Shown piece after piece: positions 24,349-34,521 of a stretch of DNA of 42,020 nt. Positions within the stretch are counted from its first letter, which is position 1, and the number at the start of each line of letters is the position of its first letter. The position numbers and the translations under genes are program-made. The notes below the pieces were generated by a model. It did not search any database, had not been told where the DNA came from, and saw only the letters and a program-made list of their open reading frames with translations. Location: positions 1-42,020 of IMG/VR virus record IMGVR_UViG_3300012920_000091; one strand, 5' to 3'. This DNA comes from a virus.

Positions 24349-25065
24349 ATGGCTTTACCTAGATTAAATGAGTCCCCTGAATATGAATTAACTATTCCTT
24401 CAATGGGTAGAAAAGTATCATTTAGACCTTTTCTTGTAAAAGAACAAAAAGTACTTTTAATGGCTTTTGAATCTAAAGATAAAGATCAAGTTTTAAAAGC
24501 TATGTTAAATACAATTAAGGCTTGTGTTGAACTACAAGATATAGAAGTAAGTACATTACCTACATTTGACATAGATTATATATTTACACAAATAAGAGCT
24601 AAGTCTGTCGGAGAAACGACAAATATTATGATTAAATGTGATTGTGAAGATAAACATGAAAATAAAGTAAGTGTTAATCTTAGTGATATAGAATTACCAT
24701 CAGGAATAAAAAAAGATGTTGTAATTCCATTAACAGATACAATTTCAGTAGGAATGAGGTATCCTACTTATAGTAATGTATTTAAAAATGTAAAAGAAGA
24801 TACTAGTGAAACTCAAATAGTTATGAATTTTCTTGTTAACTGCATTGATACAGTACAAACAGAAAATGAACTCATTAGTATGAATGATGAAATATATCAA
24901 GAAAAAATTAATTTTATAGAATCATTAAATTCAGAACAATTTAATAAACTAACTGAATATTTAAATAATGTACCTCAACTAAAAACAAGTGTTACATATA
25001 GTTGTGAAAAATGTGGAAAAGAAAATGTTCATGAATTAAAGGGATTAGAGGATTTTTTTTTATAA
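24349..25065 (+). CDS. 26: Baseplate hub / tail-assembly protein gp26
   Basis: 238 aa; T4 gp26 is 208 aa. The N-terminus YELTIPSMGRKVSFRPFLVK, EQKVLLMAFESKDKDQVLKA is the T4 baseplate gp26 family signature. Two Cys pairs (IKCDCEDK near residue 100 and YSCEKCGKEN near 224) could bind zinc. The gene ends GAT TTT TTT TTA TAA, that is, the slippery heptamer T TTT TTA in frame and directly followed by the stop. A second frame without a canonical start until near its end continues for 62 codons. AGGAG precedes the ATG by 7 bases. The next gene is the tape measure, as with tail-assembly chaperones. Confidence 0.85.
   Translation: MALPRLNESPEYELTIPSMGRKVSFRPFLVKEQKVLLMAFESKDKDQVLKAMLNTIKACVELQDIEVSTLPTFDIDYIFTQIRAKSVGETTNIMIKCDCEDKHENKVSVNLSDIELPSGIKKDVVIPLTDTISVGMRYPTYSNVFKNVKEDTSETQIVMNFLVNCIDTVQTENELISMNDEIYQEKINFIESLNSEQFNKLTEYLNNVPQLKTSVTYSCEKCGKENVHELKGLEDFFL
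25056..25062 (+). promoter_or_regulatory. Candidate -1 ribosomal frameshift site, U UUU UUA
   Basis: In the gp26 frame the codons are TTT (57-59) and TTA (60-62) preceded by T, the X-XXY-YYZ heptamer known from HIV-1 gag-pol, with the zero-frame stop TAA right after it at 25063. AAAGGG ends 12 bases upstream and AGAGG lies 4 bases upstream; internal Shine-Dalgarno-like sequences of this sort stimulate -1 shifting in dnaX. I see no convincing downstream hairpin. The T9 run could also slip during transcription. Confidence 0.65.
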
Positions 25066-25247
25066 ATCTTTCTCATGATAGTCTTGAAAATTATTATAGA
25101 GTAAACTTTCAGTTAATAAATGAATTAAATTACTCACTTAATGAATTAGAATATATGATACCATGGGAAAGAGAAATTTATATTACTATGCTTCTAGCAA
25201 GTTTAGAAGAAAAGAAACAAAGAGCTGAGCAAGGTCAAGGGATGTAA
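25062..25247 (+). CDS. Frameshift extension of gp26 (tail-assembly chaperone C-terminal part)
   Basis: About 61 residues in the -1 frame relative to gp26, beginning INLSHDSLENYYRVNFQLIN and continuing NELNYSLNELEYMIPWEREI, YITMLLASLEEKKQRAE to the TAA at 25245-25247. The frame opens at 25035 and has no ATG, GTG or TTG until the Met of YMIPW, near its middle, so it can only be read in full through a frameshift from gp26 or a non-canonical start. The PWEREIY followed by a charged helix resembles small tail-assembly proteins of other phages. Its place, between gp26 and the tape measure, matches the lambda G-T arrangement. It may correspond to the protein annotated as gp51 in some relatives, but I cannot confirm that. 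Confidence 0.65.
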   Translation: MNLSHDSLENYYRVNFQLINELNYSLNELEYMIPWEREIYITMLLASLEEKKQRAEQGQGM

Positions 25248-25249
25248 AA

Positions 25250-26911
25250 ATGGCAACATTAGTTGAAGTAAGTAGACAATTAAGTCAACAGGGATCAATT
25301 TTACAAGATACTAATCGAAGTATTGAAGAAATGTTGCGTGTTGTTCAAAATCAATTAAGTTTTTTTACTAAAAAAGAAGCTGGTGATCGACTTCAAAATT
25401 TAGAAGACGAAAGAGAACGACAGCGTGATTCTAGACCTCAAACTCCTATGTTAGAACGTCTTACAGCAGCAGTAGGAGGTCCAGCTCCAGGTAGCTTAAA
25501 AGATTTTTTTAGACAATTTGGAGCAGGATTTGCTGGTCTACTTGGTTTAGTTACTGGTGCAACTTTTGCTGCTCTTAGAAAATTACTTAAAGGAGGAATA
25601 GTATTATCAATCTTTCCTTTTATAAAAGATTTTGCTGATAGCTTAAGTACTGGTGTTATAGACGTTGTGGATGATTTTTTAGAAGATTTTTTAAAATTTG
25701 AAATGACTGAAGATCAAAAAAAGATAGTAAGATCAGCTTTAGGTGAAGGAATAAAAACAGCTGTTGTAGCAAAATTACTTGGTGCTGGTGTAAAAACATC
25801 ACTAATAGCTGGTGTAATAGGTGCAGCATTTGATGCCGTTTCTAAATTATTCCCTGACTTTGGAGAATATGTCGAAACAACATATAACGATGTTTTAGCA
25901 TGGTTAAGAGGTACTGGAGACGCTGGAATAGCTGCAGCTAATTTTATAGATAAAAATCCAGAATTAATGAAGACAGCGTTTGCAATTGCATCTGCTGTCT
26001 TAGTTACTAAATTAATTCCTGCTGCATTTACTTTAGGTGGAACTATTATAGCTTCAGTATTTGCTAAAATGGCTTTATTATTTGCAGGAGCTAAAGTAGT
26101 AGCTGGAGCAAGTGGATTAACATTACTTCTTGGAGGAAGTGCAATAGCATTAGTAACTGCTGGTGTTTTAGGATATATTTTTGAAGATGAAATAAAATCA
26201 ACTCTTAAATCATCTATGGATAAACTATTTGAAGGTATGGAAAGCGTATTGACTCAAATTAATGATTATGTTAATAGTACTATGGTAAACACTATAGACA
26301 AAATAAGAAATTTTGTATTAGGCATTGATATAGATCAAGTAGCTCCCGAAGTATTAGAACAAAAAGATCAAATTAGAGAACAGTTAAATCAATTGTATGA
26401 AGATCGTCGAAAAGCTATAGCGGCTGCTCTTGTAAATGCAGGAATTACAGGAGCAAATATTTATGACGCTGACAAAAGTAAAGAAAGAAATGAAATTGCT
26501 AATCGTATATATGAATCTTTTCAAGCTAAAGAAGATCAATTAAATTATGAACTAGATCTTATTCAACAAAGAATAGATATACAGGGTACTCAAAATAGAG
26601 AAATTCCTCTTATTCTAGGGGGTAAGTCAAAGTATAGTAATCCTATTAGTGATGCTAATCTACAACCTTTAGAATTAGAAACTTTTGGAAAAACTTTTGA
26701 CTTAGAAAATAATTTAGCTGGCCTTTCCAGTCAAGAATTGTATAACAAAAACCAAAATACATTTCCTTCTGTATCAGACCAAAGTCAAAATATTAATCAG
26801 CAAATTAACAATGTAGATTTAAATAATGAACAACGAATACTTGGAGAAAATTTTAGACATTTATTAAAGCATGGTTTTATTGGAGCTCCAGTAGTAGGAG
26901 CTGGACAATAA
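25250..26911 (+). CDS. 29: Tape-measure protein (gp29-like)
   Basis: 553 aa; T4 gp29 is 590 aa. The N-terminal 60 residues form a coiled coil (RQLSQQGSILQDTNRSIEEM, ENERERQR-like LEDERERQRDS). The middle alternates amphipathic helices with hydrophobic, Gly/Ala-rich segments near residues 85-135 (GAGFAGLLGLVTGATFAALR) and 240-315 (IIASVFAKMALLFAGAKVVA, LTLLLGGSAIALVTAGVLGY) that could enter the host membrane. Another coiled coil (DQIREQLNQLYEDRRKAIAA) and a Gln/Asn-rich tail follow. Length, layout and position right after the chaperone-like gp26 support a tape measure that sets tail length. It ends at a strong minus-strand terminator and faces gp32. Confidence 0.75.
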   Translation: MATLVEVSRQLSQQGSILQDTNRSIEEMLRVVQNQLSFFTKKEAGDRLQNLEDERERQRDSRPQTPMLERLTAAVGGPAPGSLKDFFRQFGAGFAGLLGLVTGATFAALRKLLKGGIVLSIFPFIKDFADSLSTGVIDVVDDFLEDFLKFEMTEDQKKIVRSALGEGIKTAVVAKLLGAGVKTSLIAGVIGAAFDAVSKLFPDFGEYVETTYNDVLAWLRGTGDAGIAAANFIDKNPELMKTAFAIASAVLVTKLIPAAFTLGGTIIASVFAKMALLFAGAKVVAGASGLTLLLGGSAIALVTAGVLGYIFEDEIKSTLKSSMDKLFEGMESVLTQINDYVNSTMVNTIDKIRNFVLGIDIDQVAPEVLEQKDQIREQLNQLYEDRRKAIAAALVNAGITGANIYDADKSKERNEIANRIYESFQAKEDQLNYELDLIQQRIDIQGTQNREIPLILGGKSKYSNPISDANLQPLELETFGKTFDLENNLAGLSSQELYNKNQNTFPSVSDQSQNINQQINNVDLNNEQRILGENFRHLLKHGFIGAPVVGAGQ

Positions 26912-32358: not shown

Positions 32359-32858
32359 TATTTTTTAATAAATTTTACTGTATAATTTATTCCTTCATAT
32401 ACGAATGAAATCGTGGAGTAGCTGTAAATTGTTTTCTCAGATTCTCTATATCTTGTTTCAGTTGAGCACACTCTTTTAGTACCAGCACGAGCATCACTAT
32501 TTGCATTACCAAGCATCCCACCAATAATAGCACCAATTGCACCTCCATTATTTTCTCCTTTAATATTATTACCTATAATACCACCAATAATAGCTCCTGT
32601 AACTGTATCTGCAGTTTTATCTCCTGATACTACTACATCTTTACATACCTCAACATTGTATGGCTTTTGTTCAATAACAACTCTATTATAATCAGTAATT
32701 GATCCTAATGAGTTAGATTGATCACTACCTGATTTAACATGAGCATGATGATGGTTTTGATCATGATAAGCTGAAGCTGGAACTGCTATATAAATAAAAC
32801 CTAATGCTAGTAAATAAACACATAATAAATTAAAAATTAATATTGCATATTTTCTCAT
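32358..32858 (-). CDS. Exported glycine-zipper protein
   Basis: 166 aa. The N-terminus has a Lys/Arg start, a hydrophobic core (AILIFNLLCVYLLALGFIYI) and a likely signal peptidase I site after ASA near residue 30. A His-rich patch (HDQNHHHAH) follows. Residues 88-118 are a glycine zipper (GAIIGGIIGNNIKGENNGGA, then IGAIIGGMLGN), as in the 17-kDa surface antigen/YmgG families that insert in envelopes. Two cysteines flank the zipper and could form a disulfide. In a phage this would be a protein placed in the host envelope. It overlaps its neighbours by ATGA and TAATG. Confidence 0.75.
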   Translation of the reverse strand: MRKYAILIFNLLCVYLLALGFIYIAVPASAYHDQNHHHAHVKSGSDQSNSLGSITDYNRVVIEQKPYNVEVCKDVVVSGDKTADTVTGAIIGGIIGNNIKGENNGGAIGAIIGGMLGNANSDARAGTKRVCSTETRYRESEKTIYSYSTISFVYEGINYTVKFIKK

Positions 32859-33154
32859 AGTTCTTCCTTTTTTAACAGTTTTCTATTTGATCTAAGTAAT
32901 ATTTTATTTAGTTTACTGAGGTCATCTTTTTGTTTCAAAACTTTATAATATGATTCATTTAATTGAACATTATCATGTTTTAAATGATCTAAATCTTTTT
33001 TAAGCATAGATAGTTCTAATTTTAGTTCATTATTTTCTCTAAAGTAATATGCTTCTTTTCCAAAGTTATCTAAATCTTTTAACTTAGCTGCTGAAGCAGC
33101 TTCAACACTTTCATAATCCATAGCGTTCTTATTCCAATCTATCTTTTTTTCCAT
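32855..33154 (-). CDS. Coiled-coil protein (99 aa)
   Basis: The ATG at 33154 is preferred; an upstream TTG-start frame lies inside the metalloprotease-like gene. After about 25 residues rich in Asp, Asn and Ala comes a long coiled coil (FRENNELKLELSMLKKDLDH, LKHDNVQLNESYYKVLKQKD, DLSKLNKILLRSNRKLL) with a basic end. It was not recognised. It overlaps the upstream gene by 16 bases and the glycine-zipper gene by ATGA. Confidence 0.65.
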   Translation of the reverse strand: MEKKIDWNKNAMDYESVEAASAAKLKDLDNFGKEAYYFRENNELKLELSMLKKDLDHLKHDNVQLNESYYKVLKQKDDLSKLNKILLRSNRKLLKKEEL

Positions 33155-33519
33155 TCTGCTAATATTACTTCCTGAAGCTCGCGAGCTTCTTTTTCCCAAG
33201 GCAAATTTTCATATTCATCAACAGTTTTATATCTGTAACCTTCGTCACACCACTCACCTCTTACATGTTGTTTAACATGAACCATTTCATGAAACACAGT
33301 AGTAAGAAGATCATCTCCCTCTAAGTCTTTATTTATTTCTACTTTAAATTCACGATCATCATATTCCCATGCATAACCCCATTCATCTTCAGAAAGAGTT
33401 TTGCAGGTAATATTGATATCACATTTACGTATACGAGGTATAAGATATTGATATGCAAAACAAGCTGCATCTAAAATTATTTGTTTATTTTTTCCAGATC
33501 CACCTTTAACAGATATCAT
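33139..33519 (-). CDS. HExxH zinc-metallopeptidase-like protein
   Basis: 126 aa. LLTTVFHEMVHVKQHVRGEW holds H77-E78-x-x-H81, the zincin motif, with a second His at 85. A later Glu in ENLPWEKEARELQE (about residues 107-120) could be the third ligand, as in SprT- or ImmA-like small gluzincins. The N-terminal part is a helix and beta hairpin (WGYAWEYDDREFKVEINKDL). There is no signal peptide, so it should act in the host cytoplasm. The target is unknown. The start at 33519 is one base after the stop of the upstream gene; an AAGGAAGG lies 15 bases before it. Confidence 0.75.
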   Translation of the reverse strand: MISVKGGSGKNKQIILDAACFAYQYLIPRIRKCDINITCKTLSEDEWGYAWEYDDREFKVEINKDLEGDDLLTTVFHEMVHVKQHVRGEWCDEGYRYKTVDEYENLPWEKEARELQEVILAEWKKR

Positions 33520-33903: not shown

Positions 33904-34521
33904 TTATTTTTTTGCATCTGAAGAATAAACTTCAGCTCTAACATTATCTGGTACAGGAACTTTAAAACTATTATGATTATGATGAACAACAAATTCTATA
34001 TTTGGAAACTCATGGAATATTCCATTCCATACTGGTCTCCAATTAGTTGCTAATCTATTAGTATTCATATTCTCTCTATCAGAAAATAATATAAAATCTG
34101 ATGTACTTCTAAGATTAAAATCAAATATAGAATCAAAGCCATACATATGAATTCGTTCAGCTTTTAATTTATTAGCTGCATAATGTACAGCAAAATGACC
34201 ACAATTGAAATCAGTATAGTTAGCTACATATTTTGGCAACACTGTATAAACATCTTTTATTTTTTGAGATATTTTTATAAAGAACTGTGGATGTTGATCT
34301 AACCATATTTTAGGTCTCATACCTACAATCCATTCACCAGGTACTTTCAATTCACCTTGCATAATACCTCTCATCATTTTAAAATCTACTATAGTAGTTG
34401 CGTACACACCTTCAACTTCACATGGAGCAATATTGCAAGTTAGTTTTAATCCTTTACGAGGACGTTTATTATATAAGTGCCAATGATCTCCATTTCCTAT
34501 TACATGAACAGCTCTAGCCAT
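33904..34521 (-). CDS. DUF115-like / glycan-synthesis Rossmann protein
   Basis: 205 aa. The N-terminus AVHVIGNGDHWHLYNKRPRK is like the GNGPS-type start of DUF115/MptE-like and sialyltransferase-like phage proteins. The segment FNCGHFAVHYAANKLKAERI, HMYGFDSIFD near residues 105-134 matches their conserved G-x-x-A-x-x-x-A ... I-x-x-x-G-x-D element. Such proteins transfer or handle activated sugars. It is the last gene of the glycan block and shares 8 bases with the transferase upstream. The exact reaction is not known. Confidence 0.6.
   Translation of the reverse strand: MARAVHVIGNGDHWHLYNKRPRKGLKLTCNIAPCEVEGVYATTIVDFKMMRGIMQGELKVPGEWIVGMRPKIWLDQHPQFFIKISQKIKDVYTVLPKYVANYTDFNCGHFAVHYAANKLKAERIHMYGFDSIFDFNLRSTSDFILFSDRENMNTNRLATNWRPVWNGIFHEFPNIEFVVHHNHNSFKVPVPDNVRAEVYSSDAKK

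Follow-up and report, generated by a model that had tools for sequence, protein, structure and literature searches.

The window analysed here is the whole 42,020-base stretch of an IMG/VR virus record (IMGVR_UViG_3300012920_000091) from an uncultivated phage, a marine T4-like virus. Upstream neighbors of the locus are T4-like head-closure, DNA-end-protector, and tail genes, and these are followed by gp26, an open -1 frame, and a candidate tape measure gene (Table 1). The terminal codons of gp26 read GAA TTA AAG GGA TTA GAG GAT TTT TTT TTA TAA, with the GAT at 25051-53. The -1 frame begins behind a TGA at 25032-34 and has no stop from 25035 until the TAA that closes it at 25245-47; its first start codon is an ATG at 25155, with no ATG, GTG, or TTG earlier. 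Both AAAGGG and AGAGG (25047-51) lie upstream of the slip site. Slippage at either heptamer would yield a gp26-extension fusion computed at 299 aa, with the junction ...GLEDFF/FINLSHDSL... or ...GLEDFFL/INLSHDSL... depending on the heptamer used. An earlier, sequence-only reading of this DNA had proposed a -1 frameshift here; the gp26 end, the open -1 frame, the lack of an early start, the two upstream motifs, and the predicted fusion length of about 299 aa that it described were all confirmed.

Table 1. Features at the gp26 locus (positions are those of the window)
Feature	Position	Strand	Remark
gp26, short tail assembly chaperone (TAC-N)	24349..25065	+	238 aa, 0-frame product
Possible Shine-Dalgarno (SD)-like stimulator AAAGGG	25038..25043	+	about 9 nt 5' of the slip
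Most likely slip heptamer T TTT TTT	25053..25059	+	relatives conserve this position as GA[T TTT TTY]
Second heptamer T TTT TTA, overlapping the first	25056..25062	+	one codon downstream; from sequence
-1 extension (TAC-C, "gp51" C-terminal domain)	25059..25247	+	61-62 codons + stop
0-frame stop TAA	25063..25065	+	directly adjoins the slip region
Tape measure protein candidate	25250..26911	+	553 aa; start 2 nt past the extension stop

The identity of each product was examined by profile and structure comparison. gp26 matches PF12322 (E 9e-58; 196 bits against a curated cut-off of 24.5) and phrog_150 (E 3e-59), and hhalign pairs it with T4 gp26 (probability 98.8, E 7e-17) in an alignment that reaches the C-terminus of the T4 protein. 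gp26 and the extension were folded separately. The AlphaFold2 model of gp26 has a pLDDT of 92, and among its PDB matches Foldseek gives the highest probability to 2ob9, the tail assembly chaperone of HK97 (two chains, 0.90 and 0.66), a weak match (E 0.5-1.4; TM 0.52 by target) that is, given those E values, supportive rather than proof. A sequence-profile search of the PDB returned nothing relevant. The extension, predicted to be helical, matches positions 55-116 of 121 of phrog_634, "baseplate hub assembly catalyst" (gp51; E 6e-23), as well as the C-terminal part of phrog_150 (E 1.5e-7), and aligns by hhalign with residues 204-245 of T4 gp51 (E 2.5e-5). The predicted -1 product is an already known protein element: PHROG 634, or the C-terminus of T4 gp51. 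The downstream gene matches phrog_167 (tail length tape measure; E 2e-5) and phrog_28 (E 0.001).

The junction was then compared across relatives, as the sequence-only reading had suggested. Loci came from IMG/VR (55 from a first scan and 80 from a second) and from isolates of Kyanoviridae, Straboviridae, Pootjesviridae, and Menderavirus. A gp26 match reaching its stop was found in 151 loci, a count that includes the window's own copy twice (as the window and as L075, the latter left out of the search set). An in-frame T TTT TTN falls within the last 20 gp26 codons in 148 of these 151; the three loci without it (L067, L072, and L073), all from Ackermannviridae or similar distant phages, were excluded. 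Removal of loci more than 90% identical left 123, and 120 of them are complete through the extension. Counted from the slip, every one of the 120 has 58-70 open codons in the -1 frame; the +1 frame closes after a median of 7 codons, and the 0-frame ends 2-3 codons on in 116. Stops within the extension number none in the -1 frame, against means of 6.0 and 5.7 in the other two frames. The T-run differs in length among relatives and always keeps the -1 relation, with heptamers (n = 123) of TTTTTTT in 74, TTTTTTC in 41, TTTTTTA in 6, and TTTTTTG in 2. The T-run, the nearby stop, and the -1 frame are thus conserved, and the extension has a median pairwise dN/dS of 0.39, indicating purifying selection, a value to be read qualitatively because dS is near saturation in many pairs. 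As a side observation, the 0-frame of four loci (L014, L022, L030, and L058) runs 10-11 codons past the slip, giving the short form a longer tail.

Codon choice at the site was also examined. T occupies positions 0-5 from the slip start in 120/120 loci, all picked for having the motif. The codon before Phe-Phe always ends in T (GAT, AGT, AAT, TCT, GGT, GCT) despite encoding varying residues (Asp, Ser, Asn, Gly, and Ala), and TTT is invariably the first Phe codon, even though these genes use TTC for about 25% of their Phe residues. Under each gene's codon usage the log10 P of this T pattern is about -30; the figure serves as an illustration only and is too extreme, since the loci share ancestry and had been chosen for carrying the motif. 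Taken on its own, the T9 run does not defy chance: composition predicts such runs in this AT-rich window, with 7.8 expected and 4 found. The larger ORFs of the window, 12,480 codons in all, contain 14 in-frame T TTT TTN, so a slip motif near a stop is unlikely yet not decisive. It is the comparative data that carry the case. Two further sites in the window were considered and rejected as recoding signals. The minus-strand ORF at 33904-34521 has an in-frame AAAAAAA three codons ahead of its stop, but the -1 frame spanning that stop is open for just 22 codons; AAAAAAG at 32855-33199 would enter a long downstream -1 frame, but that frame has its own ATG at the junction.

A -1 frameshift and a chaperone role like that of lambda G/GT, as had been proposed, are both supported by the slip motif and open -1 frame across more than 120 loci, by the extension being homologous to the C-terminal domain of gp51, and, more tentatively, by the resemblance of the gp26 fold to the HK97 chaperone. 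On this comparative basis, gp26 and the following -1 frame very probably constitute one tail-assembly-chaperone gene recoded by -1 programmed frameshifting. In relatives, the invariant element is a T-ending codon followed by TTT TTN, which corresponds in this phage to the first of the two heptamers. T TTT TTT is therefore the likelier slip site, and T TTT TTA overlaps it as a second one; the sequence-only reading had placed the slip at the latter, which is indeed present but lies one codon downstream of the conserved position. Both heptamers may work in this window. The T9 arrangement, GATTTTTTTTTATA, recurs in only one other non-redundant locus, L139. It might be that T9, with two heptamers and possible RNA-polymerase slippage, gives a higher or doubly controlled long-to-short ratio than in relatives with T6-T8 runs, though we consider this rather improbable.

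Signals that might stimulate slippage were sought on both sides of the heptamer. An SD-like match of at least 4 nt lies upstream of the slip in 86% of loci; among control windows the share is 24%. The signal is modestly stronger than in synonymous-randomised sequences in 84 of 120 loci (mean -6.1 versus -4.9 kcal/mol); a conserved Gly codon explains part of it. Downstream, alifold found no consensus RNA structure across the 120 loci, and the hairpin in the window folds no better than its shuffles (z +0.4). Mean single-sequence fold z scores are slightly negative (-1.05 and -1.43) with no shared helix. A conserved downstream stimulatory structure was therefore rejected.

Many GenBank records treat the extension differently: they give it an internal start and call it a "baseplate hub assembly catalyst" in its own right, a small gene (a short "gp51") translated after gp26 by reinitiation or from within. 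We consider this extremely unlikely. The annotated starts are inconsistent, giving 34 aa in C48C1 and 45 aa in HTVC008M, and they remove the conserved LSHDSLENYY part. No ATG, GTG, or TTG lies near the junction in 89 of 120 loci, an early ATG is present in 14, and an early start with SD support (a 4-nt SD core upstream) occurs in a single locus, on which count a separate gp51 start with an SD was rejected. A separate gene would also leave the invariant T TTT TT and the constant -1 relation unexplained.

The remaining alternatives concern the T-run itself, a long homopolymer in this window. RNA polymerase might slip on T9, so that some mRNAs with one extra U (or two fewer) encode the fusion. 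Such slippage may contribute in a minor way here, but as the main explanation it is very unlikely, disfavored by the 41 of 123 loci in which a T6 run (T TTT TTC) keeps the same frame relation; a T6 run is too short for efficient transcriptional slippage. Homopolymers are also prone to sequencing and assembly error, and the true gene could on that account be one in-frame fusion. The chance of this is next to nil: the 123 non-redundant loci, drawn from numerous projects and isolates, share the same out-of-frame arrangement with varied T-run lengths, and contig L139 is identical over the run. The ATG-started gene, the frame-breaking run length, and the T9 error that the sequence-only reading had itself raised as objections are accordingly not borne out by the relatives.

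Under programmed frameshifting, translation would mostly end at the gp26 TAA, yielding the 238-aa short form (TAC-N). A smaller share of ribosomes would move back by one base on U UUU UUU, or on U UUU UUA, which overlaps it, bypass the stop, and add about 61 residues to produce the 299-aa long form (TAC-NC), whose C-terminal helical domain would be what other annotations call "gp51". The analogy with lambda G/GT suggests that short forms in large number, with a few long ones, would cover the tape-measure protein and bring in subunits of the tail tube. The computational comparison shows the motif, its conservation, the conserved -1 coding frame, and the homologies to T4 gp26 and gp51; the frameshifting itself, its efficiency, and the chaperone action are inferred.

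Similar arrangements are known from other phages. As in lambda G/G-T, a short and a -1-extended chaperone would be encoded just before the tape measure gene and low-level frameshifting is implied; the phage here is contractile-tailed and T4-like, and the likeness drawn is one of arrangement. The lambda slip heptamer is G GGA AAG, unlike the one here. For P2 gpE/E+E', too, the slip site is rich in T (T TTT TTG) and precedes the tape measure gene; the likeness is again one of arrangement. In Vandenendeviridae and Andersonviridae, passages of the paper on phage Adele (PMC12846349) describe a conserved -1 poly-T slip at the TAC-N end and an extension misannotated as a hypothetical gene, as here; the motif given there is GTTTTT, unlike here, and this likeness too is by arrangement rather than protein comparison.

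The sequence-only reading had known of no such description in T4-like phages, a view that is now superseded. According to a 2016 review (PMC5009743), G-T frameshifting is a conserved trait of long-tailed phages, "except T4". Vladimirov, Gautam and Davidson (2022, Virology 566:9-15; PMID 34826709) subsequently identified the T4-like TAC genes, and passages of PMC12846349 attribute to them poly-T -1 signals in T4-like TAC-N genes; a passage of the PRFect paper (PMC10885494), citing the same study, adds that some T4-likes have one short gene plus one long fused gene in place of frameshifting. As the study is cited in these two papers, such frameshifting in T4-like phages was already published in 2022; our finding is correct but known in kind. 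By the same citations, those genes share with this locus the kind of gene, its position, and a poly-T -1 signal; this locus differs in its T9 run with two overlapping heptamers and in belonging to an uncultivated phage.

T4 gp26 (208 aa) and gp51 (249 aa) both carry PF12322, and residues 147-246 of gp51 match phrog_634 (E 1e-23) as a C-terminal domain additional to PF12322. Together with the alignments, these matches indicate that in T4 the short and long forms come from two paralogous genes, while this phage has one recoded gene. An abstract on these genes reportedly states that frameshifting is conserved in several T4-like groups and that T4 has separate genes 26 and 51. T4 gp51, as reviewed in PMC3004832, is needed for assembly but does not form part of the particle. 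Sullivan et al. 2010 (PMC3037559) noted a cyanophage gp51 "missing the first ~200 aa" and treated it as a reduced copy of gp51; the word frameshift is absent from that paper. This short cyanophage gp51 is most likely the same element as the extension here. More than 120 non-redundant loci support the marine T4-like "gp51" as a C-terminal domain of gp26 reached only by frameshifting, not a free-standing reduced gene. The slip-site alignment supplies exact targets for reporter and proteomic tests in cultivable relatives such as HTVC008M and cyanophages, and casts T4's two genes as an alternative, duplicated solution. The arrangement seen here is shared by the cultivated relatives HTVC008M, P-SSM2, and S-SSM5.

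Annotation of the extension varies. L057, L058, L059, L060, L061, L062, and L156 carry it as a separate hypothetical gene or as a truncated "baseplate hub assembly catalyst", the start being placed inconsistently from record to record, and L064, L065, L157, and L068 leave it unannotated. No joined CDS was seen among the T4-like records examined, and annotation pipelines therefore keep cutting this protein.

Finally, Ackermannviridae and related vibriophages (L072:3316-3352, L073, L158-L162, and L067, including Vi01, RPN242, 3M, Vibrio 1.255.O, and K471) have a gp51-like extension in the gp26 -1 frame without the T6 heptamer. There gp26 ends in ATT TTC ATT TAA, GTT TTC ATC TGA, or CTT TTY NNN TAA. 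No canonical X XXY YYZ heptamer fits this [AGC]TT TTY NNN TAA/TGA site, which resembles the shorter GTTTTT signal that passages of PMC12846349 describe for Vandenendeviridae.
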